From the NCBI GenBank assembly GCA_003598085.1, contig QZKU01000046.1, positions 1 to 20,916 of the forward strand: DNA of 20,916 nucleotides. The letters are read 5' to 3'. A model generated the notes under the pieces. It ran no database searches, was not told where the DNA came from, and saw only the letters and a program-made list of their open reading frames with translations. This document shows, one piece after another, positions 2,072 to 15,304 of the stretch. The translations under genes were made by a program, and so were the position numbers. Source of the stretch: Candidatus Abyssobacteria bacterium SURF_5. Its GTDB lineage: Bacteria; Abyssobacteria; SURF-5. Every line of letters begins with the position of its first letter. The first letter of the stretch is position 1.

Positions 2072-4252
2072 TCAGGCCATCCACATGGTCGCTTCGTAAT
2101 CAGGCCCCGGCACCGAGAGCTCGAGATAGCCGGTGCGCGGCCAGCGCTCGACCTCGAGGTATCCCCTGCGCACTGAGACGTGAAACCTGGCGAGGTCTCC
2201 CTCCGCAAGCCCGAGCGAAGCGAGCCCGATCGACAGCTCGACGGTTTTCTCCGCGGCGAGCCGAACGGCCGCCTCGGCGGGGTTCCACTGCTCGCCGTCG
2301 GCGCTCTGCCAGACGGCGTGCTCGACGCGGCCGGAATCGGGAAAGCGGACCTCGATGCGGGTGCGGCAGCGGGCTTCGAGGTGAAGCTCGAGCGCGATCC
2401 CCCGGAGCTCCTCATCGCGCGGGGGCGAGGTCGTATCGATCCGGAAGAAGAGGCTTTCGAGGCTGCATCCCCAGCAGATGCGCGAGACGAGCGGCTGCGA
2501 GATGTTCATCGCGCCGCCGGAGCGCAGGATATCGAAGCTGCCGGCCGCGATCCATTCGTAGTAATGGGTGATCAGCCCGTCGATCGAGGGATTGAGCAGC
2601 CCGCTCGGCTGCTCGGTCGGCCGGGCGGCGCCCCGGTTGATGATCGGCTCGCCGAGCGCCGTCGGCGGCTGGACGTCCAACAGCCGGTAGGCTTCCTGCA
2701 GGTGCGCGCGGAAGAGGCGGTCGAATTCGCTGTCGTAGGCGGAGGTGAAGTCGTCGCCGTACCACCAGAACCAGTCGCTGCCCTCGGCCGCGTACAGGTG
2801 CTCCCAGGCGGCGCTCAGGGTTTGCGGCGCGAGATCGGGCCGGCGCGTCTGCTCGCGGAGGATGACGTCGCGCGTGCGTGCGAGCAGGTCCCAGGCGAGG
2901 TTGTCCTCTTTCCGTCCGATCCAGATATTGAAGCTTCGCCCGATCCATGAGCCGCTGAAGACGCGCCCGATCCTCATGCGCGGCGGGAAGCGCTCGAGGT
3001 AATCGCCGATGGTGACGGCGTCGATCGCGCTCGATTGCGAGATGAGCGAATACAGCTCGCGCAGAAAGACGCTGCCGCCGTCGGCGTAGTATTCCCACGG
3101 GTTCTCACCATCGAGGATGATGCTGACCAGGTGCTCGCCGGAGGACGGGCGCAGGTGGGCGTGGATGTTCTGCAGGTGGTTGCCAAGATCGCGCCCGCTC
3201 GCGGCGGGCGGATTCTTTGCGTACGTGAACCCGATGAGGTCCGAGAGGCCGCGGTCGCGGAACACGATGCTGAGACCCTTCTCGCCGAGCTGGAGCCGGT
3301 AGGGCGCGTAGATGATCTCGGCGCTCCGCTGGCGCCCGAGCGTGGCGAGCAGGATGTCCTCGTCGGTCGCGATCCATTCGATTCCGGCGCCGGCGATGAT
3401 CTCGGCGGCCTCGACGCTCACCGAGCCCTCCGACGGCCACATGCCGCGCGGGCGCCGGCCGAAGATGCGCTCTGCGGTCTCGACCGCGCGCTGGACGTGC
3501 CAGCGCGCGTCCTCCGGATGCCGGAACCGCTCCTTCGGCAGCCTGACGTCGGGCATCGCCTCGCGCGCCGACTCGTGGTCGCACAGGAGCGGCAGGATCG
3601 GGTGATAATACGGGCTGACCGATATCTCGATCCGGCCCTCCTCCTGCGCCTTTCGATACCGCGGCAGGAGCGAGCGGATCAGCTCGATCTGGCGGTCGAG
3701 CACGAAGTGTTTTTCCGTTTCGCTGAAGCCGCGGCGCCGGGCGATCAGCCCCCGCAGATCGGCGTCCTTTTCGCGGGCCGCGTAACCGAACCATGTCAGG
3801 TTGTACCAGACCTGAAGGTCCCGAATTTCGTCGTCGGCAAAAAGGGCCTGCCGCTCCTTCAGCTCCTCGGGCGCCGCGCGCAGCCCGCGCTTCTCGAGCA
3901 GCTCGCGGTAGCGCGGGTGGGGAAAGACCATGGTCTCCCAGTTGGCCGAGAAGAAATGCTCGAGGATGAACGCGCGCTCGGCGGGCTCGAGCTCGCCGGC
4001 CGGCTTGCGGGAGAGCTCAAGGAACGCGTCAGTGGCCGTTCCGGCGGCGTAATCCTCGAGCTGCACCAGGAGCGAGGGCGAGAAATTGAACGTCTGGCGC
4101 ACGCGCGGGAAGTCGTCGAGCACCGACAGCATGTCGTTGTATCCCTTGATCGCGTGCAGGCGCACCCAGGGAAGCGCATACGAGCCGCCGGCGGGTTCCT
4201 TGTAGAGCGGCTGGTGCATATGCCACAGGAACGCGACGTGAATCCTGTCCAT
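2072..4252 (-). CDS. Glycoside hydrolase family 57 protein (alpha-amylase/4-alpha-glucanotransferase-like)
   Basis: A 726-residue GH57 protein; this family acts on alpha-1,4/1,6-glucans with retention of configuration and is mostly intracellular. The family motifs appear in order: HMHQP (11-15, motif 1), SPYYHPILPLL (213-223, motif 2), MWPSEGSVS (271-279, with E275 the expected nucleophile) and TDEDI (296-300, with an acidic residue as probable general acid). The FRDRGLSDLIGF segment (331-342) and DGENPWEYY (381-389) fit the subgroup usually labelled alpha-amylase/alpha-mannosidase (COG1449). A C-terminal region from about 560 is probably a beta-rich domain. There is no signal peptide, so cytoplasmic glycogen or maltodextrin metabolism is likely (inference). 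AGGAAG lies just upstream of the ATG. It is transcribed divergently from the heme operon. Exact substrate is not deducible; amylase, branching enzyme and glucanotransferase remain possible. Confidence 0.88.
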   Translation of the reverse strand: MDRIHVAFLWHMHQPLYKEPAGGSYALPWVRLHAIKGYNDMLSVLDDFPRVRQTFNFSPSLLVQLEDYAAGTATDAFLELSRKPAGELEPAERAFILEHFFSANWETMVFPHPRYRELLEKRGLRAAPEELKERQALFADDEIRDLQVWYNLTWFGYAAREKDADLRGLIARRRGFSETEKHFVLDRQIELIRSLLPRYRKAQEEGRIEISVSPYYHPILPLLCDHESAREAMPDVRLPKERFRHPEDARWHVQRAVETAERIFGRRPRGMWPSEGSVSVEAAEIIAGAGIEWIATDEDILLATLGRQRSAEIIYAPYRLQLGEKGLSIVFRDRGLSDLIGFTYAKNPPAASGRDLGNHLQNIHAHLRPSSGEHLVSIILDGENPWEYYADGGSVFLRELYSLISQSSAIDAVTIGDYLERFPPRMRIGRVFSGSWIGRSFNIWIGRKEDNLAWDLLARTRDVILREQTRRPDLAPQTLSAAWEHLYAAEGSDWFWWYGDDFTSAYDSEFDRLFRAHLQEAYRLLDVQPPTALGEPIINRGAARPTEQPSGLLNPSIDGLITHYYEWIAAGSFDILRSGGAMNISQPLVSRICWGCSLESLFFRIDTTSPPRDEELRGIALELHLEARCRTRIEVRFPDSGRVEHAVWQSADGEQWNPAEAAVRLAAEKTVELSIGLASLGLAEGDLARFHVSVRRGYLEVERWPRTGYLELSVPGPDYEATMWMA

Positions 4253-4306
4253 CTCTTCCTGTTCCCTTAAGATAACTTTTTTGAATGACAGTTCAGATGC
4301 ATGCCT

Positions 4307-4323
4307 GCCGGAGGGGCTCCGGC
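4307..4323 (-). promoter_or_regulatory. Perfect hairpin near the 5' end of the GH57 transcript
   Basis: GCCGGAG and CTCCGGC form a perfect seven-base-pair stem with a three-base loop. Given the promoter at 4337-4365, the stem would occupy about +8 to +24 of the RNA, more than 50 nt upstream of the start codon. It may stabilise the transcript or be a regulatory structure. Confidence 0.5.
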
Positions 4324-4336
4324 CTCGACGCCTCGT

Positions 4337-4365
4337 ATTCTATTCCGGCCCGCGGGCATTGTCAA
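4337..4365 (-). promoter_or_regulatory. Sigma70-type promoter for the GH57 gene
   Basis: On the minus strand, a consensus TTGACA (4360-4365) is followed after exactly 17 bp by TAGAAT (4337-4342, five of six matches). The predicted start near 4330 leaves a leader of about 78 nt before the GH57 ATG at 4252. Confidence 0.8.
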
Positions 4366-4394
4366 TGAACGCCGCCGTTTTCGTACCGTTTTCG

Positions 4395-4424
4395 TTGACA
4401 TGAGCCGAAAATTAGTGCTAAAAT
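4395..4424 (+). promoter_or_regulatory. Sigma70-type promoter with extended -10 for the ahb heme operon
   Basis: A consensus TTGACA (4395-4400) is followed after 18 bp by TAAAAT (4419-4424), with an extended -10 TG at 4416-4417. The predicted start is near 4431, giving a leader of about 94 nt before ahbC. The divergent GH57 promoter begins only about 30 bp to the left, so the two -35 boxes face away from a shared central segment. Confidence 0.8.
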
Positions 4425-4433
4425 AACTCGGTG

Positions 4434-4471
4434 GCCGGTTGGCAATTCGCAGCGCTGGGTGCCAAGCCGGC
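4434..4471 (+). promoter_or_regulatory. 5' leader hairpin of the ahbC transcript
   Basis: GCCGGTTGGCA (4434-4444) pairs with TGCCAAGCCGGC (4460-4471) through 11 base pairs and one bulged G (4466), closing a 15-nt loop. The stem begins at about +4 of the predicted transcript. No T-run follows, so it is not an obvious attenuator. It could be an RNA-stability element or the binding site of a regulator; it does not match a riboswitch that I recognise. Confidence 0.5.
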
Positions 4472-4524
4472 TTTCAGTGTGATGGGTTCTTGCCGTTTGA
4501 TTTTTTTGGGGGATACGTACCACA

Positions 4525-5709
4525 ATGATAGGTTTCACGAAACTGCTCTGCGGCGTTGCCACGATCGGCGAGGCCCTTAATTACAGCCGCCGCGGCGACG
4601 CCGGCGTTCCCGCCCACATGCTGCAGTTCACGACGGCCGAGCGGCCGCTGGTGGCGTGGAACACGACGCGCCGCTGCAACCTGCGGTGCCTTCACTGCTA
4701 TCTCGATTCGGAGGATAAGGAATACGCGGGCGAATTGACGACCGATCAGGCGAAGGCGATGATCGACGACCTCGCCGAGATCGGGTCGCCCGTCCTGCTG
4801 TTTTCCGGCGGCGAGCCGCTCCTGCGCAAGGACATCTTCGAGCTCGGCGAGTACGCGATCGCGAAGGGCATTCGCGCCGTGATCTCCTCAAACGGGACGC
4901 TGATCGACGAGCGCGCGGCCGCGCGCATCGCCGAGGTCGGCTTCTCGTACGTCGGCATCAGCATCGACGGCGCTCCGGAGACACACGACCGGTTCCGCCG
5001 CAAGAAGGGGGCTTTCGAGGGGGCGATGCGCGGGATCGAGAACTGCACGCGCGCCGGAGTGAAGGCGGGCGTCCGGCTCACGATCAATCAGCATAATTAC
5101 GGCGACCTCGAGGCGGTTCTCGACATCGTCGAGCGGCACAAGATCCCGCGCTTCTGCATGTATCACCTCGTCTATTCCGGGCGCGGGCGCGAGCTGGCGA
5201 AGCAGGACCTTTCGCCCGAGCAGACGCGCCGCGTGGCCGAGAAGCTGATCGAGAAGACGTACGACTGGCATCGGCGCGGCGTCGAGACCGAGATCCTCAC
5301 CACCGACAACCACGCCGACGGCGTGATGCTCGAAAAACATATCCGCGACCTCAATCCGGACCGGGCGCTCGAGATAACCGAGCTGCAGAAGCGGCATGGC
5401 GGCTGCTCCGCCGGGCGCAAGTTCGCGAACGTCGACTGGAGAGGCGACGTGCACGCCTGCCAGTTCTGGAACCACGTCACGCTCGGCAACGTGAAGGAGC
5501 GCCGCTTCTCGGAGATATGGACCGACCCGAACAACGAGTTCCTGCAGAAACTCAAACACCTGCACGAGCACATCCGCGGCAAGCGGTGCGGCTCGTGCAA
5601 ATACAAGACCATTTGCGGCGGCTGCCGCATCCGGGCCGAGGCCACCTGCGGAGACATGTGGGGGGACGACCCGGCCTGCTACCTGTCCGACCGCGAGATC
5701 ATGGAATAA
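4525..5709 (+). CDS. ahbC: AhbC, 12,18-didecarboxysiroheme deacetylase (radical SAM/SPASM)
   Basis: AhbC removes the two acetate side chains of 12,18-didecarboxysiroheme to give Fe-coproporphyrin III in the siroheme-dependent heme pathway. The 394-residue protein starts [10 protein letters not shown], like AhbC/NirJ-family proteins. The radical SAM cluster motif is CNLRCLHC (C51, C55, C58), with GGEP at 95-98 and a [15 protein letters not shown]-like segment near 145-157. The C-terminal SPASM-like region has C294, C312, C355, C358, C364, C367, C375 and C385 for auxiliary Fe-S cluster(s). The ATG follows GGGGGA by about 11 nt. It is the first gene after the plus-strand promoter at 4395 and is followed by hemB and the remaining Ahb genes. 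The alternative is NirJ of heme d1 synthesis, but no cd1 nitrite reductase genes are nearby and ahbD and ahbA/B are, so AhbC is strongly preferred. Confidence 0.9.
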
Positions 5710-5807
5710 AAAGGACCCGCCTCTCGCGAACGCGCGCGCGGTCTGGCAAGAGATCTTATCAAAGGATAATGGGCGCCGGGGCTTCTGCCTCTGTGGGGGA
5801 AAAAGAA

Positions 5808-6791
5808 ATGAGATACCCGATCTACCGCCCGCGCAGGTTGAGGGCGAACGAGAACCTCAGGCGCATGATCCGGGAGACCCGCCTCTCGACGGACGACCTG
5901 ATCATGCCGCTGTTCGTGCGGCCGGGCAGGGGCGTTCGCAACAAGATATCGTCGATGCCGGGCATATTTCAGCTCTCGGTGGATGAAGCGGTGAAGGAGG
6001 CGCGCAAGGCGGCCGATCTCGGCGTTCCCGCGATCATCCTCTTCGGGATTCCCGAAGCGAAAGATGCGCGCGGGACGCACGGGTACAAGAAGGATAACAT
6101 CGTCGCGAAGGCGATCAGGGCGATCCGGGACAAGGTGGAGGATCTTGTCATCGTCACCGATGTCTGCCTGTGCGAGTACACCGACCACGGCCACTGCGGG
6201 GTGGTCAGGAAAGAGCGCGGCGGCGGATTTTCGGTCGATAACGACGCCACGCTCGAGCTGCTTGCGAAGATGGCGCTCTCGCACGTCCAGGCCGGCGCGC
6301 ACATGGTGGCGCCGAGCGACATGATGGACGGCCGCATCGGCGCGGTCAGGGCTTCGCTCGACGATAGCGGCTTCGAGCATATCCCCATCATGGCCTATGC
6401 GGCCAAATACGCCTCGGCCTTCTACGGGCCGTTCCGCGACGCGGCCGAGTCGCCGCCGCAGTTCGGCGACCGGCGCTCGTATCAGATGGACCCGCCGAAT
6501 TCGGATGAGGCGCTGAGAGAGGTCGCGCTCGATATCGAGGAGGGCGCCGACATCGTGATGGTGAAGCCGGCGCTGCCGTACCTCGACATCATCTATCGCG
6601 TGAAACAGGAATTTGGGTATCCGGTCGCGGCTTACAACGTGAGCGGCGAATACGCCATGATCAAGGCGGCCGCGGCGAAAGGCTGGGTCGACGAACAGAA
6701 GATCGTTCTGGAGATGCTCACCGGCATCAAGCGGGCGGGCGCCGACATCATTCTCACCTATTACGCGCTGGAAGCGGCGCGGTGGCTGTAA
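5808..6791 (+). CDS. hemB: Delta-aminolevulinic acid dehydratase (porphobilinogen synthase) HemB
   Basis: HemB condenses two molecules of 5-aminolevulinate to porphobilinogen, the second committed step of tetrapyrrole synthesis, in the cytoplasm. The 327-residue length is standard. Both active-site lysines are visible: K200 in [13 protein letters not shown] and the Schiff-base K253 in [10 protein letters not shown]. The metal site [14 protein letters not shown] carries C120, C122 and C130, which marks the zinc-dependent class. I chose the ATG at 5808 because the family's usual N-terminus (xYPxxRPRRLR) begins there and GGGGGA lies seven bases upstream; an in-frame ATG at 5769 would add 13 residues without homology. 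It lies 98 bp after ahbC on the same strand and is probably cotranscribed. Confidence 0.97.
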
Positions 6792-6974
6792 GAATTTTGG
6801 ATCCCGGATCGGAGTCCGGGACATGTTTTGGATTTGGATTCGCGTCGGAATCCGGCCCAGGTTCTGGATTCCGGGATAAGCACACCACCAAGACACAACG
6901 AGGCGTGACTTTTCGGTTTTCTTGGTGCCTTGGTGCCTCTGTGGTTAATTTCAAAACTTTGTATTTTATTCTTT
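6792..6974. repeat. Intergenic repeat patch between hemB and ahbD
   Basis: Two hairpins follow the hemB stop: CCCGGA/TCCGGG (6803-6820) and CGGAATCC/GGATTCCG (6846-6873), within a stretch rich in GGAT and GGAATCC words. Next comes a segment at 6881-6955 that, on the minus strand, reads ATTAACCACAGAGGCACC followed by AAGGCACCAAGAAAACC, with a degenerate inverted copy (CACACCACCAAGACACAA) at its left end. This type of repeat resembles the intergenic motifs at 1332-1725. No T-run follows either hairpin, so an intrinsic terminator is not evident. Confidence 0.6.
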
Positions 6975-8066
6975 ATGACCGTTGAACAAAAAAAACGACA
7001 CGCTCACGGCGGGCATCCGGGCGGGAAATCGGAGCTGCGGCTGGTCGCGTGGGAGATCACGCGCTCGTGCAATCTCGCCTGCATCCACTGCCGCGCGTCG
7101 GCCGAGCGGGGCCCGTATCCGAACGAGCTCTCGACCGGGGAATGCAAGAAGGTTCTCGACGAGATCCACTCGTTCAGCGACCCGATCATCATCTTCACCG
7201 GCGGCGAGCCGCTGCTGCGCACGGACATCTTCGAGATCCTTCGCTACGGGCAGTCTCTCGGGATGAAGATGACGATGGCGGTCAACGGTGTTCTGCTGGA
7301 TGAGCCGACTGCGCGCCGGCTGGTCGAGCACGGCATCCAGCGCATCAGCGTCAGCATCGACGGCTCGACCGCGGAGACGCACGACGCGTTCCGGAAGGTG
7401 CCGGGCGCGTTTGCGGGCGCGATGCGGGGGATCGAGGCGGCGAAGAAGGCCGGACTTCCGTTCCAGCTCAACACCACGATCACCAGGATCAACCTGCACG
7501 AGATCGGCGACATCCTGAAGCTGGCGGTCGATCTGGGGGCGGTCGCCCACCACATTTTTCTCCTGGTCCCGACGGGCCGCGGGAAAGATCTCGAGGAACA
7601 GGAAATCCCTCCCGAGGAATACGAGCGGACGCTGAACTGGTTCTATGAGCAGCGCGAGAAGACTCCGCTCCAGCTCAAGGCGACGTGCGCCCCGCATTTT
7701 TACCGCATTCTGCGCCAGCGGGCGGCGGCCGAGGGCAAAGAGGTGAGCTTCGAGACCTACGGGATGGACGCCGTGACGCGCGGCTGTCTCGGCGGCGTCG
7801 CTTTCTGTTTCATCTCGCACGTCGGCACGCTCTCGCCGTGCGGATACCTCGAGCTCGACTGCGGCAACGTGCGCGCGGAGGGCTTTCGCGCGGCGTGGGA
7901 GAACTCGAAGGTCTTCAACGAGCTGCGCGACTTCAGCCGCTACGAGGGCAAGTGCGGGAAGTGCCGCTACCTGAAAGTGTGCGGCGGCTGCAGGGCGCGC
8001 GCGTACGCGCGGACCGGCAATTACCTTGCGGAAGAGCCCTACTGCGTGTATCCGGGCTCCGGGTGA
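6975..8066 (+). CDS. ahbD: AhbD, heme synthase of the siroheme-dependent pathway (radical SAM/SPASM)
   Basis: AhbD oxidatively decarboxylates two propionates of Fe-coproporphyrin III to vinyl groups, giving heme b. The 363-residue protein begins with a His/Gly-rich segment (HAHGGHPGGKSE, 9-20) as in other AhbD proteins. It then has the radical SAM motif CNLACIHC (C32, C36, C39), GGEP at 76-79 and ISVSIDGSTAETHDAFR near 124-140. The C-terminal cysteines C238, C271, C278, C289, C296, C327, C330, C336, C339 and C357 fit the auxiliary cluster regions. It is about 30% shorter in its linker than some SPASM proteins but of normal AhbD length. The ATG at 6975 has no Shine-Dalgarno; the upstream sequence is AT-rich and abuts the repeat patch. 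ahbA/ahbB follow 41 bp downstream. Confidence 0.88.
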   Translation: MTVEQKKRHAHGGHPGGKSELRLVAWEITRSCNLACIHCRASAERGPYPNELSTGECKKVLDEIHSFSDPIIIFTGGEPLLRTDIFEILRYGQSLGMKMTMAVNGVLLDEPTARRLVEHGIQRISVSIDGSTAETHDAFRKVPGAFAGAMRGIEAAKKAGLPFQLNTTITRINLHEIGDILKLAVDLGAVAHHIFLLVPTGRGKDLEEQEIPPEEYERTLNWFYEQREKTPLQLKATCAPHFYRILRQRAAAEGKEVSFETYGMDAVTRGCLGGVAFCFISHVGTLSPCGYLELDCGNVRAEGFRAAWENSKVFNELRDFSRYEGKCGKCRYLKVCGGCRARAYARTGNYLAEEPYCVYPGSG

Positions 8067-8107
8067 GAAAGACTCGCTCGCGCGGCCTCTTGTCTCTCTA
8101 ACCAAAT

Positions 8108-8584
8108 ATGGACGGCATGACTGCATTCAAGAGAATCGAGCAGGAAGTCCTGAAGGTCATCCAGCAGGAATTCCCCATCTCGCCTCATCCCTACCGGGAG
8201 CTTGCCCGGCGGATCGGTTCGTCCGAGGACGACGTGTTTCATGCAGTCGAACACCTCCGCAAAACGGGGATCATCCGGCGCCTCGGCGGCAGCTTCGACT
8301 CGCGAAAGGTCGGCTACAAGAGCACCCTCGTCGCGCTCAGCGTCCCGAAGGAGCGCCTTTCCGAGGTCGTTTCGATCGTCAACGGCTACACCGGCGTGAC
8401 CCACAATTATGAGCGCGAGGGCGCCTACAACGTCTGGTTCACGCTGATCGAGCAGTCCGAGAAGAAGATAGAGGAGACGCTCGGCGAGATCGGGCGGCGG
8501 ACCGGCCTCAAGCCGCTCAACCTTCCCGCATCACACCTGTTCAAGATCAAGGTGGACTTCGATCTGGAGAACGACGGCGAATGA
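8108..8584 (+). CDS. ahbA: Siroheme decarboxylase subunit (AhbA-type, AsnC/Lrp-like fold)
   Basis: Siroheme decarboxylase removes two acetate carboxyls from siroheme to give 12,18-didecarboxysiroheme; it is a heterodimer of two related proteins with an Lrp/AsnC-like fold. This 158-residue subunit has an N-terminal AsnC-type helix-turn-helix region (about 22-58, PISPHPYRELARRIGS...RRLGG), then a C-terminal ligand domain with FDSRKVGYKSTLVAL (63-77) and VTHNYEREGAYNVWFTL (97-113), both typical of the Ahb/NirD class and not of true Lrp regulators. Its stop overlaps the next start by four bases (ATGA), so the two subunits are translationally coupled. The start has weak ribosome-site support; ATG at 8117 is possible. 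Which of the two is AhbA and which AhbB is assigned from gene order and is uncertain. Confidence 0.85.
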   Translation: MDGMTAFKRIEQEVLKVIQQEFPISPHPYRELARRIGSSEDDVFHAVEHLRKTGIIRRLGGSFDSRKVGYKSTLVALSVPKERLSEVVSIVNGYTGVTHNYEREGAYNVWFTLIEQSEKKIEETLGEIGRRTGLKPLNLPASHLFKIKVDFDLENDGE

Positions 8585-9048
8585 AACTCGACCCCCTCGA
8601 TCATAAAATCATCAATGCGCTTTCCGGCGACCTTCCGCACACCAGGGAGCCGTACCGGCAGATAGCCGAGGAACTGGGTGTCACCGAAGAAGAGCTGCTC
8701 GCGCGGGTCCGGGGATATCTTGAGAAGGGCCTGCTGAGGCGGATGGGCGCGATGATCGCGCACCGTGCGGCCGGGGTCGACGCCAACGGCATGATCGTGT
8801 GGGACGTGCCGGAGGATCGGATCGAGGAAGTCGGCCGAATGCTGGCGTCGGCGCCGGAGATCACGCACTGCTACGCGCGCCCCCGCTTTGCGGAGTGGCC
8901 CTACAACCTGTACACGATGGTTCACGGGCGCACGCGCGCCTTCTGCGAGAAGACCGCGAAACGTCTCGCGGCCGAGGTCGGCATCGACCGGTTCAAGCTC
9001 GTGTTCAGCACGCGCGAGTTCAAGAAAACCAGTCCGCGGTATTTTTAG
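8581..9048 (+). CDS. ahbB: Siroheme decarboxylase subunit (AhbB-type, AsnC/Lrp-like fold)
   Basis: This is the partner of the preceding subunit in siroheme decarboxylation. The 155-residue product has an N-terminal winged-helix-like region (about 5-56) and a ligand domain with LRRMGAMIAHRAAGVDANGM (52-71), THCYARPRFAEWPYN (95-109) and a C-terminal EFKKTSPRYF. The HCYxRP...WPYNL...MxHG motif marks the other paralogue class (NirG/H-like) compared with the VTHNY class upstream, as expected for a two-subunit enzyme. It starts within the upstream stop codon (ATGA overlap), and a GGAG lies a few bases before. A gap of 110 bp separates it from hemL. The alpha/beta naming is provisional. Confidence 0.85.
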   Translation: MKLDPLDHKIINALSGDLPHTREPYRQIAEELGVTEEELLARVRGYLEKGLLRRMGAMIAHRAAGVDANGMIVWDVPEDRIEEVGRMLASAPEITHCYARPRFAEWPYNLYTMVHGRTRAFCEKTAKRLAAEVGIDRFKLVFSTREFKKTSPRYF

Positions 9049-9158
9049 CCGATTCAGCGATCGCCGGCCGCTCTCCAATACCGCGACACAGCCTCAAATA
9101 TTTATCCCGGGGAGATGGGTACATGCTTCAGGAATTGAGCTAACGTCGGGGGGAATGC

Positions 9159-10454
9159 ATGGCTGCAAGAAAGATGACGAAGTCGAAGCAGTTGTGGAAG
9201 CAGGCGCAGCGGCTGATGCCGGGCGGCGTGAACAGCCCGGTGCGCGCGTTCAAAGGGGTCGGCGGCTCGCCGATATTTGTTGAAAGAGGCAAGGGAAGCC
9301 GCATCTGGGACGTCGACGGCAACGAGTATATCGACTACGTGTGCTCGTGGGGGCCGTTGATCCTCGGGCACGCCCATAAAGAGGTCGTTGCCCGATTGCG
9401 AAAGACGGCGGCCGAGGGAACCAGTTTCGGCATCCCGACCGAAAAGGAATCGCGGCTGGCGAAGATGATCATGCGCGCGTTTCCGTCGATCGAGCGCGTG
9501 CGCCTGGTAAACTCCGGCACCGAGGCGGTCATGAGCGCGATCCGGCTGGCGCGCGCGTGGACGGATCGGCCGCTGATCGTGAAGTTCGAGGGGTGCTACC
9601 ACGGGCACGCCGACGGCCTGCTGGTGAAGGCGGGCTCGGGCGCGATGACGCTCGGGGTGCCGACGAGTCCGGGCGTGCCGCCGCAGTATGCGGGCTGCAC
9701 CATCACGCTTCCGTATAATGATCTCGAAGCCGCCGCGGCCGCCTTCCGCGAGCACGGCAGCGAGATCGCCTGCCTGATCGTCGAGCCGATTGCGGGGAAC
9801 ATGGGGGTCGTGCCGCCGGAGGAGGGCTACCTCGAAGGCCTGCGCGAGCTGACGGCAAAGCACGGCGTCCTGCTGATCTTCGACGAGATCATCACCGGTT
9901 TTCGCGTCGCGTACGGCGGCGCCCAGAAGCTTTTCAAGGTGAAGCCCGACCTCACGACGCTCGGCAAGATCATCGGCGGCGGCCTACCCGTGGGCGCATA
10001 CGGCGGCAGGGCGGACATCATGGAGATGATGGCGCCGGCCGGTCCGGTCTACCAGGCGGGAACGCTTTCGGGCAACCCGCTGGCGGTCGAGGCCGGCATC
10101 GCAACGCTCGAGGTGCTCTCGCGGCCGGGCGCATACAAGAAGCTGGACCTGTTGGCGGAGCGGCTGGGCGAGGGCCTGATCGAGGCCGCTCGAATGGCCG
10201 GCATCCCATCGTATCATACCAGGATCGGTTCGATGCTGTGCATGTTCTTTTCCGAGCAGCCGGTGCGCAACCTCGCGGATGCGCTGAGGTGCGACACGCG
10301 CAGATACGCGAAGTATTTTCACGAGATGCTCGAGCGCGGCGTGTACCTGGCGCCGTCCCAGTTCGAGGCCGCATTCGTTTCGCTCGCGCATACGGAGAAG
10401 GACGTCGAGAGAACGGTTCGGGCCGCCGAGCAGTCTCTCCTGGAAATCGAATAG
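9159..10454 (+). CDS. hemL: Glutamate-1-semialdehyde 2,1-aminomutase HemL
   Basis: HemL is a PLP enzyme that converts glutamate-1-semialdehyde to 5-aminolevulinate, the entry metabolite of the C5 tetrapyrrole pathway. The 431-residue length is typical. Visible motifs are [11 protein letters not shown] (21-31), [15 protein letters not shown] (118-132), the [10 protein letters not shown] segment (241-250, whose aspartate contacts the PLP ring nitrogen), and the PLP-binding K270 in [17 protein letters not shown]. The ATG at 9159 follows a GGGGGGA by four bases; ATG at 9174 is a less supported alternative. It is the last gene of the heme block and feeds HemB. hemA (glutamyl-tRNA reductase), hemC, hemD and the siroheme synthase genes are not in the window. 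Confidence 0.97.
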
Positions 10455-10587
10455 AGGCCACCGGATAAAACGCTTTATTTTTTTGGCGCTTTCGGCTATA
10501 CTTTCCCTTTGACATCCGAACGCGATCAGGCTTCCTTTGAGGAGGAAAGCCGAGGGGAGGGGCCGGCGAGCGCATAAAGAGGATTGG
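10455..10587 (+). promoter_or_regulatory. Intergenic region before the antiporter, possible weak promoter
   Basis: A TATACT (10497-10502) is a good -10 candidate, but the box 17 bp upstream (TTTATT, 10474-10479) is a poor -35. An A/T-rich mini-hairpin (ATAAA/TTTAT) with a T-run near 10466-10484 could end heme-operon transcripts weakly. Both readings are tentative. Confidence 0.3.
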
Positions 10588-12282
10588 ATGCCGTCGGTTC
10601 CCGCAGGAGAAGTCAGGCTGATCGTTCACGTCGGCCTGATGCTGATTCTCGGACTTTTCTTTGGAGGGCTGGTCGCGCGGGTGCGCGTCCCGCGCGTCAC
10701 CGGCTACCTGGCGGCGGGCTTTCTGCTCGGCCCGTCGGTGAGCCGGATGGTCCAGTGGGACGAGCTGCGCAACTTCGATCTCATCGCGCAGCTGGCGCTG
10801 GGGCTGATCATGTTCAGCATCGGCGGCGAGTTCCGGGCCGACCACATCAGGCGCTTCGGCCGCAAGCTCTTTCTGGTGACGGCGGTACAGATGGTGCTGA
10901 CGTGGGCATTGGTCGGCGGTCTGCTGTGGCTGGTCAGCCGCAATTTCATTCTGGCTGTCGTGGTCGGCTTCATAGCGATGGAAACCGCCCCCGCCACCAC
11001 CCTTGTGGTAATCAAGGAATACGAGTCGGAAGGCTCGTTCACCTCGAACCTGATGGCGCTGGTGGGAATCAACAATTTCCTTTGTCTCATTTTATTTCCG
11101 TTCCTGCTCGTCCTCGTGATGCAGAACGAGCGGGGGCTGGCTTTTTCCGCGATGGAAGCTGGGCGCTCGATGCTGCTGGGGCTGGCCGGCGGGTTCGCGC
11201 TGAGCTTTTTGGAAGAGCGCGTATACACGCCCAAGCAGCAATTGCTGCTTGCGATTGCGGCGATAACCCTGGTCGTTGGGATGGCATACGCCTGGGGCGG
11301 GTCCGGTCCGCTGGCGACCCTGGTGCTTGGCGCTGCCAAGAGGAACACCTCGGCGCACGGCGCTTCGATGTTCCAGTTGATCGATGCGAGCGCCTATCCG
11401 TTTTATGTGATATTTTTTGTGATAGCAGGCGCGAATCTTCATCTTGAAACGCTGGTGCACGTAGGGCTGCTGGGGGCGGCCTACATTGGCGGCAGGACGC
11501 TGGCGAAGATAGCGGGTTCGGCGCTCGGGGCCTCGGCGGCCGGTCTCTCGGAGGAATGGCGGCGGTACCTCGGCCTCGCGATGCTCTCGCACGCGGGGGT
11601 GGCCATCGGACTGGCGATGGCCGTGGGCCAGTCCGGTCTGCAGGGCGCGCAGGCCATGCAGGCGATCGTGCTTGGCTCGATCGTTGTGTTTGAGGTCTTC
11701 GGGCCGCTATCGGTTCGGTTTTCGCTTGTCCGGTGCGGAGAGGTGAAGCTGGTGTCGCTCTTGCCGCACCTGCCGGGCAGATCGGTGTCCGACATTTTAG
11801 AGATGATGGCAAGCCGGGTCCGCGCATCGATTGGGTTGCCGCCTTCGGCTTTCCGCGGCCGCGGTATGGCTGGGCCTGCGGCAAAGCACGTTATGAGAAG
11901 AAACGTCGAGAGCGTGCTGGAGAACGCCGGTTTGGACGAATTGATGAAGATATTCTCCCACGCCCGGTATGACCTGCTTCCGGTGGTGACGAAAGAGGGG
12001 AGATATATCGGGAATATCTCGTTTGCGCGCATCCGCGACGTGATATTCGATGAGGCCGTGGCCGATCTGCTGATCGCACGGGACATGCTTGATGACGCTG
12101 TCGTGTACGTGACGCCGGGTGAGAGCGTGGACTCGATCCTTCAAAAGTTCAGCGAGATGAGCGAGGAGGTCGGCACCTTGCCCGTGATATCCGAAGGCGA
12201 AAGCCCGCGGGTCGTGGGCATGGTTCGGCAGCGAGACGCAGTTGACGCCTATTGGCGCGCTCAGCGGGCAAAGGCGGGCTGA
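10588..12282 (+). CDS. CPA2-family cation/proton antiporter with C-terminal CBS domain pair
   Basis: A 564-residue inner-membrane protein. Residues 1 to about 400 contain roughly 12 hydrophobic segments and resemble the Na+/H+ exchanger (CPA2/KefB) fold, with TGYLAAGFLLGPSV near 38-51, the GLIMFSIGGEF segment near 74-84 and SHAGVAIGLAMAVG near 333-346. The rest is cytoplasmic, with a CBS-like pair: HVMRRNVESVLENAGLDEL around 435-453, then RYDLLPVV, and a second repeat containing VVYVTPGESVDSILQKF and a GTLPVI motif. CBS pairs usually bind adenine nucleotides and gate transport. I chose the ATG at 10588, which follows GAGG by five bases. It is followed after 38 bp by a PTS EIIA protein, so PTS control of ion transport is plausible. 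The transported ion (Na+, K+) is not deducible. Confidence 0.85.
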   Translation: MPSVPAGEVRLIVHVGLMLILGLFFGGLVARVRVPRVTGYLAAGFLLGPSVSRMVQWDELRNFDLIAQLALGLIMFSIGGEFRADHIRRFGRKLFLVTAVQMVLTWALVGGLLWLVSRNFILAVVVGFIAMETAPATTLVVIKEYESEGSFTSNLMALVGINNFLCLILFPFLLVLVMQNERGLAFSAMEAGRSMLLGLAGGFALSFLEERVYTPKQQLLLAIAAITLVVGMAYAWGGSGPLATLVLGAAKRNTSAHGASMFQLIDASAYPFYVIFFVIAGANLHLETLVHVGLLGAAYIGGRTLAKIAGSALGASAAGLSEEWRRYLGLAMLSHAGVAIGLAMAVGQSGLQGAQAMQAIVLGSIVVFEVFGPLSVRFSLVRCGEVKLVSLLPHLPGRSVSDILEMMASRVRASIGLPPSAFRGRGMAGPAAKHVMRRNVESVLENAGLDELMKIFSHARYDLLPVVTKEGRYIGNISFARIRDVIFDEAVADLLIARDMLDDAVVYVTPGESVDSILQKFSEMSEEVGTLPVISEGESPRVVGMVRQRDAVDAYWRAQRAKAG

Positions 12283-12320
12283 GCGCACGAATGAAAGCAG
12301 AAAAGGGTGGTGATATCCCA

Positions 12321-12800
12321 ATGAGGCTCTCAGAGTTCCTCCGGCCCGAGCTCATCAAGGTGAGGCTGGAGGCGAAGGATAAGTGGGACTGCATCGCACA
12401 GCTGATCGATCTGGCGGTCGCGGCGAAAGAGCTGAAGCCGGAGACCCGGGACAAGGTCCTCGAGATCGTCTACGACCGGGAACGCTCGATGAGCACCGGC
12501 ATGGAGCGGGGCATCGCCATCCCGCACGCGAGCACCCACCTGGTCGATTCCATCGTCGGGGCTATCGGGATATCCAGAAGCGGGATACCGTTCGACTCGC
12601 TTGACGGCCAGCCCGCTCAACTCGTGGTTCTTTTGGTGATCCCCAAGGATAAATTTCAGCAGCACGTGCGAACGCTTGCCGGGATCGCCCGCCTCTTCAA
12701 ACACGATTTCATGACCACCGCTCTTCGAGATGCAAAATCGCCCGAAGAGGCGATGGATATCATCAGGAACGAGGAACGCAAGGACCTGTTTACGACCTGA
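12321..12800 (+). CDS. PTS EIIA (nitrogen/fructose-type) domain protein
   Basis: A 159-residue single-domain EIIA of the fructose/mannitol/Ntr class. The phosphorylatable histidine is H69 in GIAIPHAST, preceded by REREMSTGMERG-like sequence with the family's arginines and followed by VGAIGISRSGIPFDSLDGQPAQLVVLLV. No EIIB or EIIC is nearby, so it probably acts as a regulator rather than a sugar transporter component. It directly follows the antiporter gene, and stand-alone EIIA proteins are known to regulate K+ transport (EIIA-Ntr on TrkA and KdpD in proteobacteria). A matching role for this antiporter is inference. I chose the ATG at 12321, which has GGGTGGTG upstream and aligns with the family N-terminus; ATG at 12291 would add ten residues. 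Confidence 0.88.
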   Translation: MRLSEFLRPELIKVRLEAKDKWDCIAQLIDLAVAAKELKPETRDKVLEIVYDRERSMSTGMERGIAIPHASTHLVDSIVGAIGISRSGIPFDSLDGQPAQLVVLLVIPKDKFQQHVRTLAGIARLFKHDFMTTALRDAKSPEEAMDIIRNEERKDLFTT

Positions 12801-12801
12801 C

Positions 12802-12841
12802 ATGCCGGCATATTCGAGCAGCGGCCGATGCAACCGGCCGC
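12802..12841. repeat. Two small palindromes downstream of the EIIA gene
   Basis: ATGCCGGCAT (12802-12811) is a perfect palindrome, and GCGGCCG/CGGCCGC (12821-12841) forms a seven-base-pair stem with a seven-base loop. They lie within 40 bp of the EIIA stop. There is no T-run, so a classic intrinsic terminator is not supported, but a Rho-independent pause or RNA-processing site is possible. Confidence 0.35.
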
Positions 12842-12917
12842 GATCCGGAATCCCCGCCCGACCCACAAGAAGCAAGCCTCGCGATCTTTCATGTTGCAGA
12901 ATAGAAACAAACTTGCT

Positions 12918-13802
12918 ATGAACACCGCCGTCCAAACGCTGTTGCAGCGCGATTCGCTTTTTCTCGTGATCGAGCTTCGCGCGCTCTGGGTATCGATCGC
13001 TTTGCAGATGCTTGCGGCGATGGCGTATCTGCGCTGGCTGATCTCGCCGCGCGACAAGACCGGCAGGAGCGCCAGGCGCCTGCTCTTCACGGCGACGCTG
13101 ATCCTTTCCCTGATCATCCTGTGCAGGACGGTGCAGGCGGGGCGGCCGCCGTACCAGACGCTGTATGAGAGCCTGTTGTGGTTCTCGTGGAGCGCCCTGC
13201 TCGCGTACCTCGTCGTCGAGCGCAGCTTCGAGAGCATTCATGCCGCCGGGTTCCCGGTGGCCGTTATCGCCGCCGCCGCGTGCCTGTACGCCGTCCTCGG
13301 GCGCGATCCCGCGCTGGAGCCGCTGCCGCCCGCCCTGCAGAGCCAGTGGTTTCTGTGGCATGTGATCATCGCGTTCATCTCATATGCCGTCTTTGTGGTC
13401 GCCTTTGCGGTCGAGCTGGCGCACGTGTCGCTCGTGGGCCTGCTGCCGTACCGGATCCTCAAGCGGTATCGGATGGAAAGCGAGGCCGCGGCGCGTTTTC
13501 ACCGGTCGGCGCACCGGCTGGTGCTGTTCGGCTTCCCGCTGCTGACGTTCGGGATCGTGACGGGCGCGGCATGGGCGGAGCAGGCGTGGGGGCGCTATTG
13601 GTCGTGGGACCCGAAGGAAACGTGGTCGCTGATCACCTGGACGGTGTACGCCCTCTATCTGCATGCGATGACGATGGGCCGGTGGAGGGGCGGCCGCGCC
13701 TCGGCCTTGAATATCCTGGGCTTCGTATGCATGGTGATGACGTTTTTGGGCGTCAACTGGATCAGCCGGCTGCTCGGCATCCCGAGTCTGCACGCGTACT
13801 GA
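12918..13802 (+). CDS. ccsA: Cytochrome c assembly protein CcsA (system II heme handling)
   Basis: CcsA acts with ResB (CcsB) to export heme and attach it to CXXCH apocytochromes on the outer side of the membrane. The 294-residue protein has about eight hydrophobic segments and the hallmark tryptophan-rich (WWD) motif WGRYWSWDPKETWS (224-237), which presents heme. Histidines H148 (WHVII) and H249 (LYLHAM) are placed like the conserved heme-coordinating histidines in the family. I chose the ATG at 12918, which begins just before the first hydrophobic segment; in-frame ATGs at 12828 and 12891 lack ribosome sites, and the chosen one has only weak support. resB follows after 17 bp. CcmC and CcmF share the WWD motif, but the size and the adjacent resB favour CcsA. 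Confidence 0.9.
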   Translation: MNTAVQTLLQRDSLFLVIELRALWVSIALQMLAAMAYLRWLISPRDKTGRSARRLLFTATLILSLIILCRTVQAGRPPYQTLYESLLWFSWSALLAYLVVERSFESIHAAGFPVAVIAAAACLYAVLGRDPALEPLPPALQSQWFLWHVIIAFISYAVFVVAFAVELAHVSLVGLLPYRILKRYRMESEAAARFHRSAHRLVLFGFPLLTFGIVTGAAWAEQAWGRYWSWDPKETWSLITWTVYALYLHAMTMGRWRGGRASALNILGFVCMVMTFLGVNWISRLLGIPSLHAY

Positions 13803-13819: not shown

Positions 13820-15304
13820 ATGCGCGAAGCGGCGACAAAACAAAGGAATTCTTCCGGCGGCGGATTCTACCGCACTCTGGTCTCGGTCAAAACGACGCTG
13901 GTCTTCCTCGGGGTTTTCGCCGCGCTCTTTTTCCTTGGGACTATTTTCCCGCAGGACCCCGACCCGGCCGCAATCGAGCGGTATCGCGAGTCCGGCGGCA
14001 AGCTGGCGGGCCTGGTCGCCGCGCTGGACCTCCTCGACATATTTCATTCGTCGTATTTCTTGCTGCTCGCGTCCGCGTTCGCCGTTCACCTGCTCCTGTG
14101 CGGCATCCACAGGCTGAGCATCATCCGAAAACGCCCGAAGTACGGCCTCTTCAGCCGCGACGAGTTGCTGCAGCGCGAGCATTCGTTCTCGATCTCCTCC
14201 ACCGATGGAGAGGCCGGGCCCGACATCGAGCGCATGCTCGGCGCGTTCGGATTTCGGCGGATGAAATATTATTCCGAGAACGCGAATGTGAAGCGGGTCG
14301 TGGCCGAGAAGGGATTACCTTTCCGCTGGCTCTCCTGGACGTACCATCTTCTCATACTGATCACGATGGCGGGCTTCATCGTATCCTTCCTTTTTGCTTT
14401 CGAGGACTACGTCGAGGTGTCCGCGGGACAGAGGAAAACGATTTCGCTCGATGCCCGCACGAACTGGAGAAAGTTGGCCGATGTCCTCGGCCTGAGAAGC
14501 GAGGGCCGGTCGCGCCGGCTCGACATCGAGTTGGAGGATTTCTCGACAGCGTACGTCGAGAAGCCGCATCTCGAGTACCCGAAAAAGCCGGGCGCCCGCT
14601 TTGCCTCGCTCTGGGGAAAATCGCCCGCGCGCCCGCATTACGTCCTGCCTGCGAACTCGGTGACGCCGTCCGACTGGTACAGCACGCTGACCGTATATCT
14701 CGATGGGGGGCCGGTCAAGCAAAAGACGATCGAAGTGAACGATCCGCTTCGGTTCGGCGGCATGACGTTCTATCAGATCGGATACGAACACGCCTTCGAT
14801 CTTCAGGCAGGCGAAGAAATATTGGCCGATCTGACGGCGGAGGAGCCATTTTCCATTCCGCAGATGGAAGGCGAGTTTTTGCTCGAGACGCCGCGCGATG
14901 GCCCTCTGCAGACGTACGCCGGAGAGAAGAAGGAGCTGCGCCCGGCCGCGAGGCTGAAATACCGGCCGCCGTCGTCGACGCAAAAGCGGGCGTGGTCAGT
15001 TGTCGCCGAGCTGTATCCCGATGAGCCGGCAAAGGCAATGCGCACCCGTTTCGTCCTGTCGAACATGCGGGAAAGCAGCATCCTCAGTTACCGGTACGAT
15101 CCCGGGGTGCCCATTCTCTGGACGGCCGCCGGGCTGCTGATGCTGCTGATGGGGTTGCGCATCTACATGCCGTGGTATCAGGTGCATTGTCATGTGGACC
15201 GGATGAATGGGCGAACTCTGATCACCGTGAGCATCCGGATGGTCGGCCTGTTTGCGCGGCCGGAGCGCCTGAAACTGCGAATGAGCGACGCCCTCCGGAA
15301 GTAG
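13820..15304 (+). CDS. resB: ResB/CcsB-like cytochrome c biogenesis protein (system II)
   Basis: ResB is the partner of CcsA in system II cytochrome c maturation and keeps heme and apocytochrome cysteines reduced. The 494-residue protein has transmembrane segments at about 20-41, 78-97, 172-194 and near the C-terminus (about 430-450), with a large soluble domain between segments 3 and 4 that would lie outside the cytoplasm. Family features include the VSVKTTLVFLGVFAALFFLG start (21-40), the SWTYHLLILITMAGF segment and a GGMTFYQIGYEH-type segment late in the soluble domain. GGAGGT lies six bases before the ATG. The order ccsA then resB is the reverse of the more common resB-ccsA. The length is near that of Bacillus ResB. 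Confidence 0.9.
   Translation: MREAATKQRNSSGGGFYRTLVSVKTTLVFLGVFAALFFLGTIFPQDPDPAAIERYRESGGKLAGLVAALDLLDIFHSSYFLLLASAFAVHLLLCGIHRLSIIRKRPKYGLFSRDELLQREHSFSISSTDGEAGPDIERMLGAFGFRRMKYYSENANVKRVVAEKGLPFRWLSWTYHLLILITMAGFIVSFLFAFEDYVEVSAGQRKTISLDARTNWRKLADVLGLRSEGRSRRLDIELEDFSTAYVEKPHLEYPKKPGARFASLWGKSPARPHYVLPANSVTPSDWYSTLTVYLDGGPVKQKTIEVNDPLRFGGMTFYQIGYEHAFDLQAGEEILADLTAEEPFSIPQMEGEFLLETPRDGPLQTYAGEKKELRPAARLKYRPPSSTQKRAWSVVAELYPDEPAKAMRTRFVLSNMRESSILSYRYDPGVPILWTAAGLLMLLMGLRIYMPWYQVHCHVDRMNGRTLITVSIRMVGLFARPERLKLRMSDALRK

Follow-up and report, generated by a model that had tools for sequence, protein, structure and literature searches.

How an anaerobic bacterium of the uncultured phylum 'Ca. 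Abyssubacteria' could make its heme was the question raised by a six-gene block of the SURF_5 genome, which had been predicted from its letters to serve the siroheme-dependent (Ahb) heme pathway. The window analyzed here is the entire contig QZKU01000046.1 of 20 916 nucleotides, from a genome assembly of 5 103 455 bases in 145 contigs that is 98.5% complete. For comparison we used two relatives from the same family, SURF_17 and a groundwater metagenome-assembled genome (MAG) labelled Candidatus Poribacteria (contig JACRIR010000202.1); with SURF_5 these represent three genera and are called the three Abyssubacteria below. We consider it probable that the block is a late-step operon of the siroheme-dependent pathway in this anaerobic lineage and that its AhbC is a variant carrying a second auxiliary cluster.

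All six open reading frames (ORFs) of the predicted block were found collinear on the plus strand between positions 4525 and 10454. Applying the curated NCBIfam cut-offs (500 bits for AhbD, TIGR04545; 140 for AhbA; 125 for AhbB; 297 for HemB; 527 for HemL; and 650 for AhbC, TIGR04546), five of the encoded proteins scored above their thresholds, with 567 bits for AhbD, 163 for AhbA, 192 for AhbB, 518 for HemB and 631 for HemL. The residues recognized in the original prediction were also borne out, including the radical S-adenosylmethionine (SAM) motifs of both such enzymes (CNLRCLHC at residues 51–58 of the enzyme in the AhbC position and CNLACIHC at 32–39 of AhbD), the cysteine-type metal site of HemB and the LGKIIGGG lysine region of HemL, as was the siroheme decarboxylase pair joined by a 4-base ATGA overlap at 8581–8584. 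Both decarboxylase subunits, which have their counterparts in the two chains of structure 4czd (siroheme decarboxylase), have the HXYXR motif (HNYER at AhbA 99, HCYAR at AhbB 96) that belongs to the active site and faces the cavity (PMC4145669), and the eight SPASM cysteines of AhbD follow exactly the pattern described for methanogens and sulfate reducers (PMC10452713). HemB and HemL are entry enzymes of every heme route and are not by themselves indicative of Ahb.

The sixth protein, the radical SAM/SPASM enzyme in the AhbC position, was the sole AhbC candidate in the SURF_5 genome, reaching 507 bits with the AhbC model where the next matches were AhbD at 190 bits and then one at 93 bits. AhbC was also its best model, ahead of NirJ1 (478 bits) and NirJ (407 bits against a NirJ cut-off of 515). 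Its overall identity was 48–52% to AhbC and 31–34% to AhbD, and at the 18 positions diagnostic for AhbC versus NirJ it was AhbC-like at 12 and NirJ-like at 2. The radical SAM cysteines C51/C55/C58 (CX3CX2C) and the C-terminal CX2CX5CX20–21C motif, both described for AhbC and NirJ (PMC12505453), were present. As the only candidate, encoded beside its partner genes and siding with AhbC over NirJ by 12 positions to 2, the enzyme most likely removes acetates from didecarboxysiroheme. It resembles the AhbC of Methanosarcina barkeri and Desulfovibrio (12,18-didecarboxysiroheme deacetylase, TIGR04546) in the radical SAM and CX2CX5CX20C motifs, in operon position and in best-scoring model, the M. barkeri sequence lying outside the comparison, but differs in its lower score and in three extra SPASM cysteines. 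The low score is common to the lineage, with 507 bits for SURF_5 and 514 and 504 bits for its relatives, compared to 763–772 for Desulfovibrio-type proteins, 657 for Coriobacteriales and 682 for another genome.

The original prediction had named a better match to NirJ as the result that would speak against it, and in that respect the AhbC assignment stood, since the AhbC model came out ahead; the assignment is nevertheless blurred by a score below the cut-off and by a cysteine set found in none of the AhbC or NirJ proteins compared. A NirJ/NirJ1-type enzyme, removing propionates on the heme d1 route so that the block would serve a d1-like cofactor, is very improbable. It is true that the NirJ1 model scored merely 29 bits below AhbC and that NirJ has both substrate and fold in common with AhbC (PMC12505453), the fold being found also in NirJ1. 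The AhbD of the same block passes its own cut-off, however, the diagnostic residues favor AhbC, and grouping of the enzyme with NirJ was rejected in tree tests (p 0.016). Searches for cytochrome d1 in the three Abyssubacteria gave fragmentary matches only, of 19–28 bits and scattered in large ORFs, and no NirS was found in SURF_5, which makes heme d1 an unlikely product. In the absence of a real cytochrome d1 domain, and with the residue and tree tests opposing it, the heme d1 interpretation was rejected.

What sets this AhbC apart is a seven-cysteine SPASM motif, C294-X12-G-X4-C312 followed by C355xxC358x5C364xxC367, X17 and C385. We compared it with 14 proteins (five AhbC, two NirJ1, five NirJ and two haloarchaeal pseudo-SAM proteins), all of which keep C355, C358, C364 and C385. 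The remaining three, C294, C312 and C367, occur in each of the three Abyssubacteria, as in AhbD, but in none of the 14. At the corresponding positions AhbC and NirJ1 have N, D and F, NirJ has N, D and T, and the pseudo-SAM proteins have D, T and S. Beside C367, the Abyssubacterial proteins also lack the one-residue insertion found in all 14 (GGNFR after the CGG loop in AhbC), a deletion (CGG-CR) that they have in common with AhbD. The Pfam SPASM model accordingly matched the Abyssubacterial proteins at 37–40 bits from model position 1, compared to 18–33 bits from position 5–10 for the canonical proteins. In the ligand assignment of AhbD, the counterparts of C294, C312 and C367 are three of the four ligands of auxiliary cluster I (AuxI) (PMC10452713). 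By analogy we predict that the enzyme holds a second auxiliary [4Fe-4S] cluster through these cysteines, which have AhbD-like spacing, with no obvious fourth cysteine. The protein thus has seven of the eight SPASM cysteines of AhbD at matching spacing, CGGCR loop included, while being AhbC-like overall. For NirJ a single auxiliary [4Fe-4S] cluster has been shown, AhbC is thought to be alike, and electron donation has been proposed as its role, although that work still treats the function of auxiliary clusters in the two enzymes as an open question (PMC12505453). A seven-cysteine AhbC variant was not found in the literature searched.

The extra cysteines could instead be non-ligands, arisen by convergence or exchanged from the neighboring ahbD, and without functional meaning. 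We regard this as unlikely, although the fourth AuxI cysteine is not obvious and although masking of the cysteine columns weakens the tree placement described below. All three residues are invariant across three genera (87–89% protein identity), their spacing is exactly that of AhbD/SPASM, and the deletion next to them matches that of AhbD. A simple exchange from ahbD is opposed by the C-terminal 54 residues, which are 54% identical to AhbC and 35% to the AhbD of the window itself; the same region-wise identities led us to reject a chimeric origin, in which AhbC would have taken its SPASM domain from the adjacent AhbD.

We then constructed trees using AhbD as the outgroup, with AhbC, NirJ1, NirJ and pseudo-SAM proteins included and archaeal AhbC outside the sampling. 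With all columns, the Abyssubacterial proteins fell outside a group of AhbC, NirJ1, NirJ and pseudo-SAM proteins (support 98/97 and 99/97). With the cysteine columns masked, the support for this placement was 83/90. A clade of AhbC including the Abyssubacteria was not rejected, with p 0.06 for all columns and p 0.21 after masking. Within this sampling, parsimony favors the SPASM cysteines being a retained ancestral state. Somewhat short of an even chance, in our estimate, is the fuller scenario in which the Abyssubacterial lineage diverged before the first auxiliary cluster was lost from the AhbC/NirJ1/NirJ family, leaving an AhbC with three [4Fe-4S] clusters in all, the one-auxiliary enzymes having come from an AhbD-like full-SPASM ancestor.

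Turning to the pathway as a whole, family searches of the three Abyssubacteria found no ferrochelatase (HemH), and neither HemE nor HemN above cut-off. The best HemE match in SURF_5 reached 98 bits against a cut-off of 303 and scored better as an MtaA/CmuA-type methyltransferase, while the best HemN-like match was the chaperone HemW. The protoporphyrin and coproporphyrin branches are therefore both unavailable, in line with the expected absence of hemE, hemN and hemH; HemF, HemG, HemY and HemQ, which are moot without a ferrochelatase, were left out of the searches. The late part of the predicted siroheme-dependent pathway consequently held up, with AhbA/B, AhbC and AhbD occurring together and AhbC assigned by best model and context, whereas the early genes were absent and the AhbC call is not a clean one.

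Several observations weigh against our proposed explanation. The AhbC-position enzyme scored below the equivalog cut-off of 650 bits, and at nine decisive positions it was NirJ1-like at four and AhbC-like at five. A structure model based on seven sequences had a mean predicted local distance difference test (pLDDT) score of 58, with most of SPASM below 50, which was too poor for cluster geometry, and it was not used. Family searches of the three Abyssubacteria recovered neither a CbiX nor a CbiK chelatase even though AhbA/B need siroheme, and iron insertion would therefore fall to a SirC/CysG-N-type protein or an unknown enzyme. Finally, the genes hemA, hemC, cobA/hemD and sirC were missing from the SURF_5 assembly in spite of its completeness, so that the claim that the middle steps must be encoded elsewhere was not borne out in this assembly for HemA, HemC and SUMT, and the SURF_5 synteny point was intact without the early cluster, running into a kinase and unrelated genes.

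Both relatives have these early steps in one cluster, consisting of genes for a LysM/YkuD protein, sirC, a CcsA/HemX-like protein, hemA, hemC and a SUMT-HemD fusion, where sirC is of the CysG N-terminal type and also the best chelatase candidate. When DNA of this region was searched against SURF_5, the neighboring Rnf genes were found on a 120-kb contig but the cluster was not. With the cluster carried by both relatives and HemL and HemB kept in SURF_5, an assembly gap is the likeliest cause. The joint absence of HemA, HemC, SUMT and the syntenic cluster, together with the intact Rnf flank, could alternatively mean that the early genes are truly gone, that no heme is made de novo from glutamate and that an external tetrapyrrole such as siroheme is imported and processed by the late Ahb steps only. 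We find this improbable, for HemL and HemB have been retained and yet would serve no purpose if HemA and HemC were lacking, the full cluster is kept in two sister genera, and linked genes vanishing jointly is what a single assembly gap would give.

In the proposed pathway of synthesis from glutamate, HemL and HemB would supply 5-aminolevulinate and porphobilinogen, and the HemA, HemC, HemD, SUMT and SirC steps would come from the second cluster, present in the relatives and probably missing from the SURF_5 assembly. After decarboxylation of siroheme at C12 and C18 by AhbA/B, the AhbC-position enzyme would strip didecarboxysiroheme of its acetates at C2 and C7, yielding iron-coproporphyrin III, and both vinyl groups of heme b would then be made by AhbD, should flux follow the gene content. 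The AhbC-position enzyme would hold the radical SAM cluster, the auxiliary cluster of the family (C355, C358, C364, C385) and, if occupied as predicted, AuxI (C294, C312, C367), which would plausibly pass on the electron that quenches the acetyl radical, by analogy with what has been proposed for the auxiliary cluster already known. A natural variant with a predicted extra cluster acting on the same substrate would allow a direct test of the role of auxiliary clusters, and may reveal whether AhbD-like enzymes changed into NirJ-like ones or the reverse. As the AhbC cut-off misses the Abyssubacterial lineage, automated annotation may score its pathway as incomplete.

The order ahbC-hemB-ahbD-ahbA was also found in Desulfomicrobiaceae, Desulfovibrio, an unclassified Proteobacteria MAG and Coriobacteriales, and both Abyssubacteria relatives keep the block order; its preservation in these loci argues against chance. 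It also means that the pathway, the operon and its inferred function were already known and that the host phylum alone is new, the operon thus taking this pathway into one more uncultured phylum. The AhbC-position enzyme is more informative than the operon. Three Desulfovibrio-type loci agree with the window in genes, order, strand and pathway logic, but have a canonical AhbC with one auxiliary-cluster motif, no hemL seen adjoining the block, and proteins 44–57% identical to those of the window. The Coriobacteriales locus differs in having sirC-hemA-hemC-cobA/hemD directly in front, compared to the two separate clusters of Abyssubacteria.

Six promoter-like sites were found in 4200–10700, compared to 1.3 expected by shuffling, one of them standing 100 bases 5' of ahbC (Table 1). 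In the Poribacteria-labelled MAG, every adjacent pair within hemB-ahbD-ahbA-ahbB shares 4 bases, which supports a single transcript. The SURF_5 block is more widely spaced, with 183 bases preceding ahbD. This hemB-ahbD gap (6792–6974) holds a cttggtgccttggtgcct stretch plus a stem-loop and, judging from the 4-base overlap of the same genes in the Poribacteria-labelled MAG, probably arose by insertion. The stretch resembles a dispersed repeat, and its core motif was not found in any other locus compared. No Rfam RNA or tRNA was found in the window.

Table 1. Positions of the heme block, its candidate cluster ligands, promoter-like sites and downstream genes in the window.
Feature	Position	Strand	Basis
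Sigma-70-like promoter TTGACA-18-TAAAAT (11/12), upstream of ahbC	4395–4424	+	Consensus match only
Divergent sigma-70-like promoter, facing GH57 gene	4365–4337	−	Consensus match only
AhbC-position radical SAM/SPASM enzyme, 394 aa	4525–5709	+	Model scores, motifs, alignment
Codons C294 to C312, C-X12-G-X4-C, candidate AuxI ligands	5404–5460	+	Alignment; regular-expression match in the three Abyssubacteria
Codons C355xxC358x5C364xxC367-X17-C385; putative AuxII ligands C355, C358, C364, C385 and candidate AuxI ligand C367	5587–5679	+	Alignment, motif match; ligands by analogy with AhbD (PMC10452713)
hemB, porphobilinogen synthase, cysteine-type metal site	5808–6791	+	HemB model, motif; ATG start 5808
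ahbD, heme b synthase, radical SAM, eight-cysteine SPASM	6975–8066	+	567 bits, motif; start probably ATG 6975
ahbA, siroheme decarboxylase alpha subunit	8108–8584	+	Model score, HNYER
ahbB, siroheme decarboxylase beta subunit	8581–9048	+	Model score, HCYAR
hemL, glutamate-1-semialdehyde 2,1-aminomutase	9159–10454	+	Model score, motif
ccsB, cytochrome c assembly (system II), downstream heme consumer	12828–13802	+	TIGR03144, 196 bits (cut-off 187.6)
resB/ccs1, partner of ccsB	13820–15304	+	PF05140

Downstream of the block, the ccsB neighborhood is conserved in the relatives. Between the heme block and ccsB/resB (10537–12800) lie genes for a CPA2-type antiporter with CBS domains and then a PTS EIIA-type protein, a pair kept in SURF_17, while the Poribacteria-labelled MAG keeps the EIIA gene only. 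That contig, JACRIR010000202.1, groups with Abyssubacteria at the heme locus with an AhbC 89% identical, and its Poribacteria label is therefore probably wrong. The GC content of the window is 60.8%, compared to about 55% (51–59%) elsewhere in the same genome, which led us to consider a contaminant contig; this was not supported, as the tetranucleotide profile correlated with that of the genome at 0.95 and the gene order matched SURF_17 across ahbC-hemB-ahbD-ahbA-ahbB-hemL-CPA2-EIIA-ccsB-resB. The contig begins with parA and rsmG (gidB), and may thus lie near the replication origin.

Searches for further AhbC relatives found none on viral contigs, and on plasmids solely proteins of the NirJ1, NirJ, pseudo-SAM and TIGR04053/mycofactocin types. 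The plasmid pSb31l of Paenibacillus polymyxa has at 6001–9208 two radical SAM genes, one of them NirJ1-like, and after these a gene for a long AsnC-type protein, possibly an AhbA-AhbB fusion.

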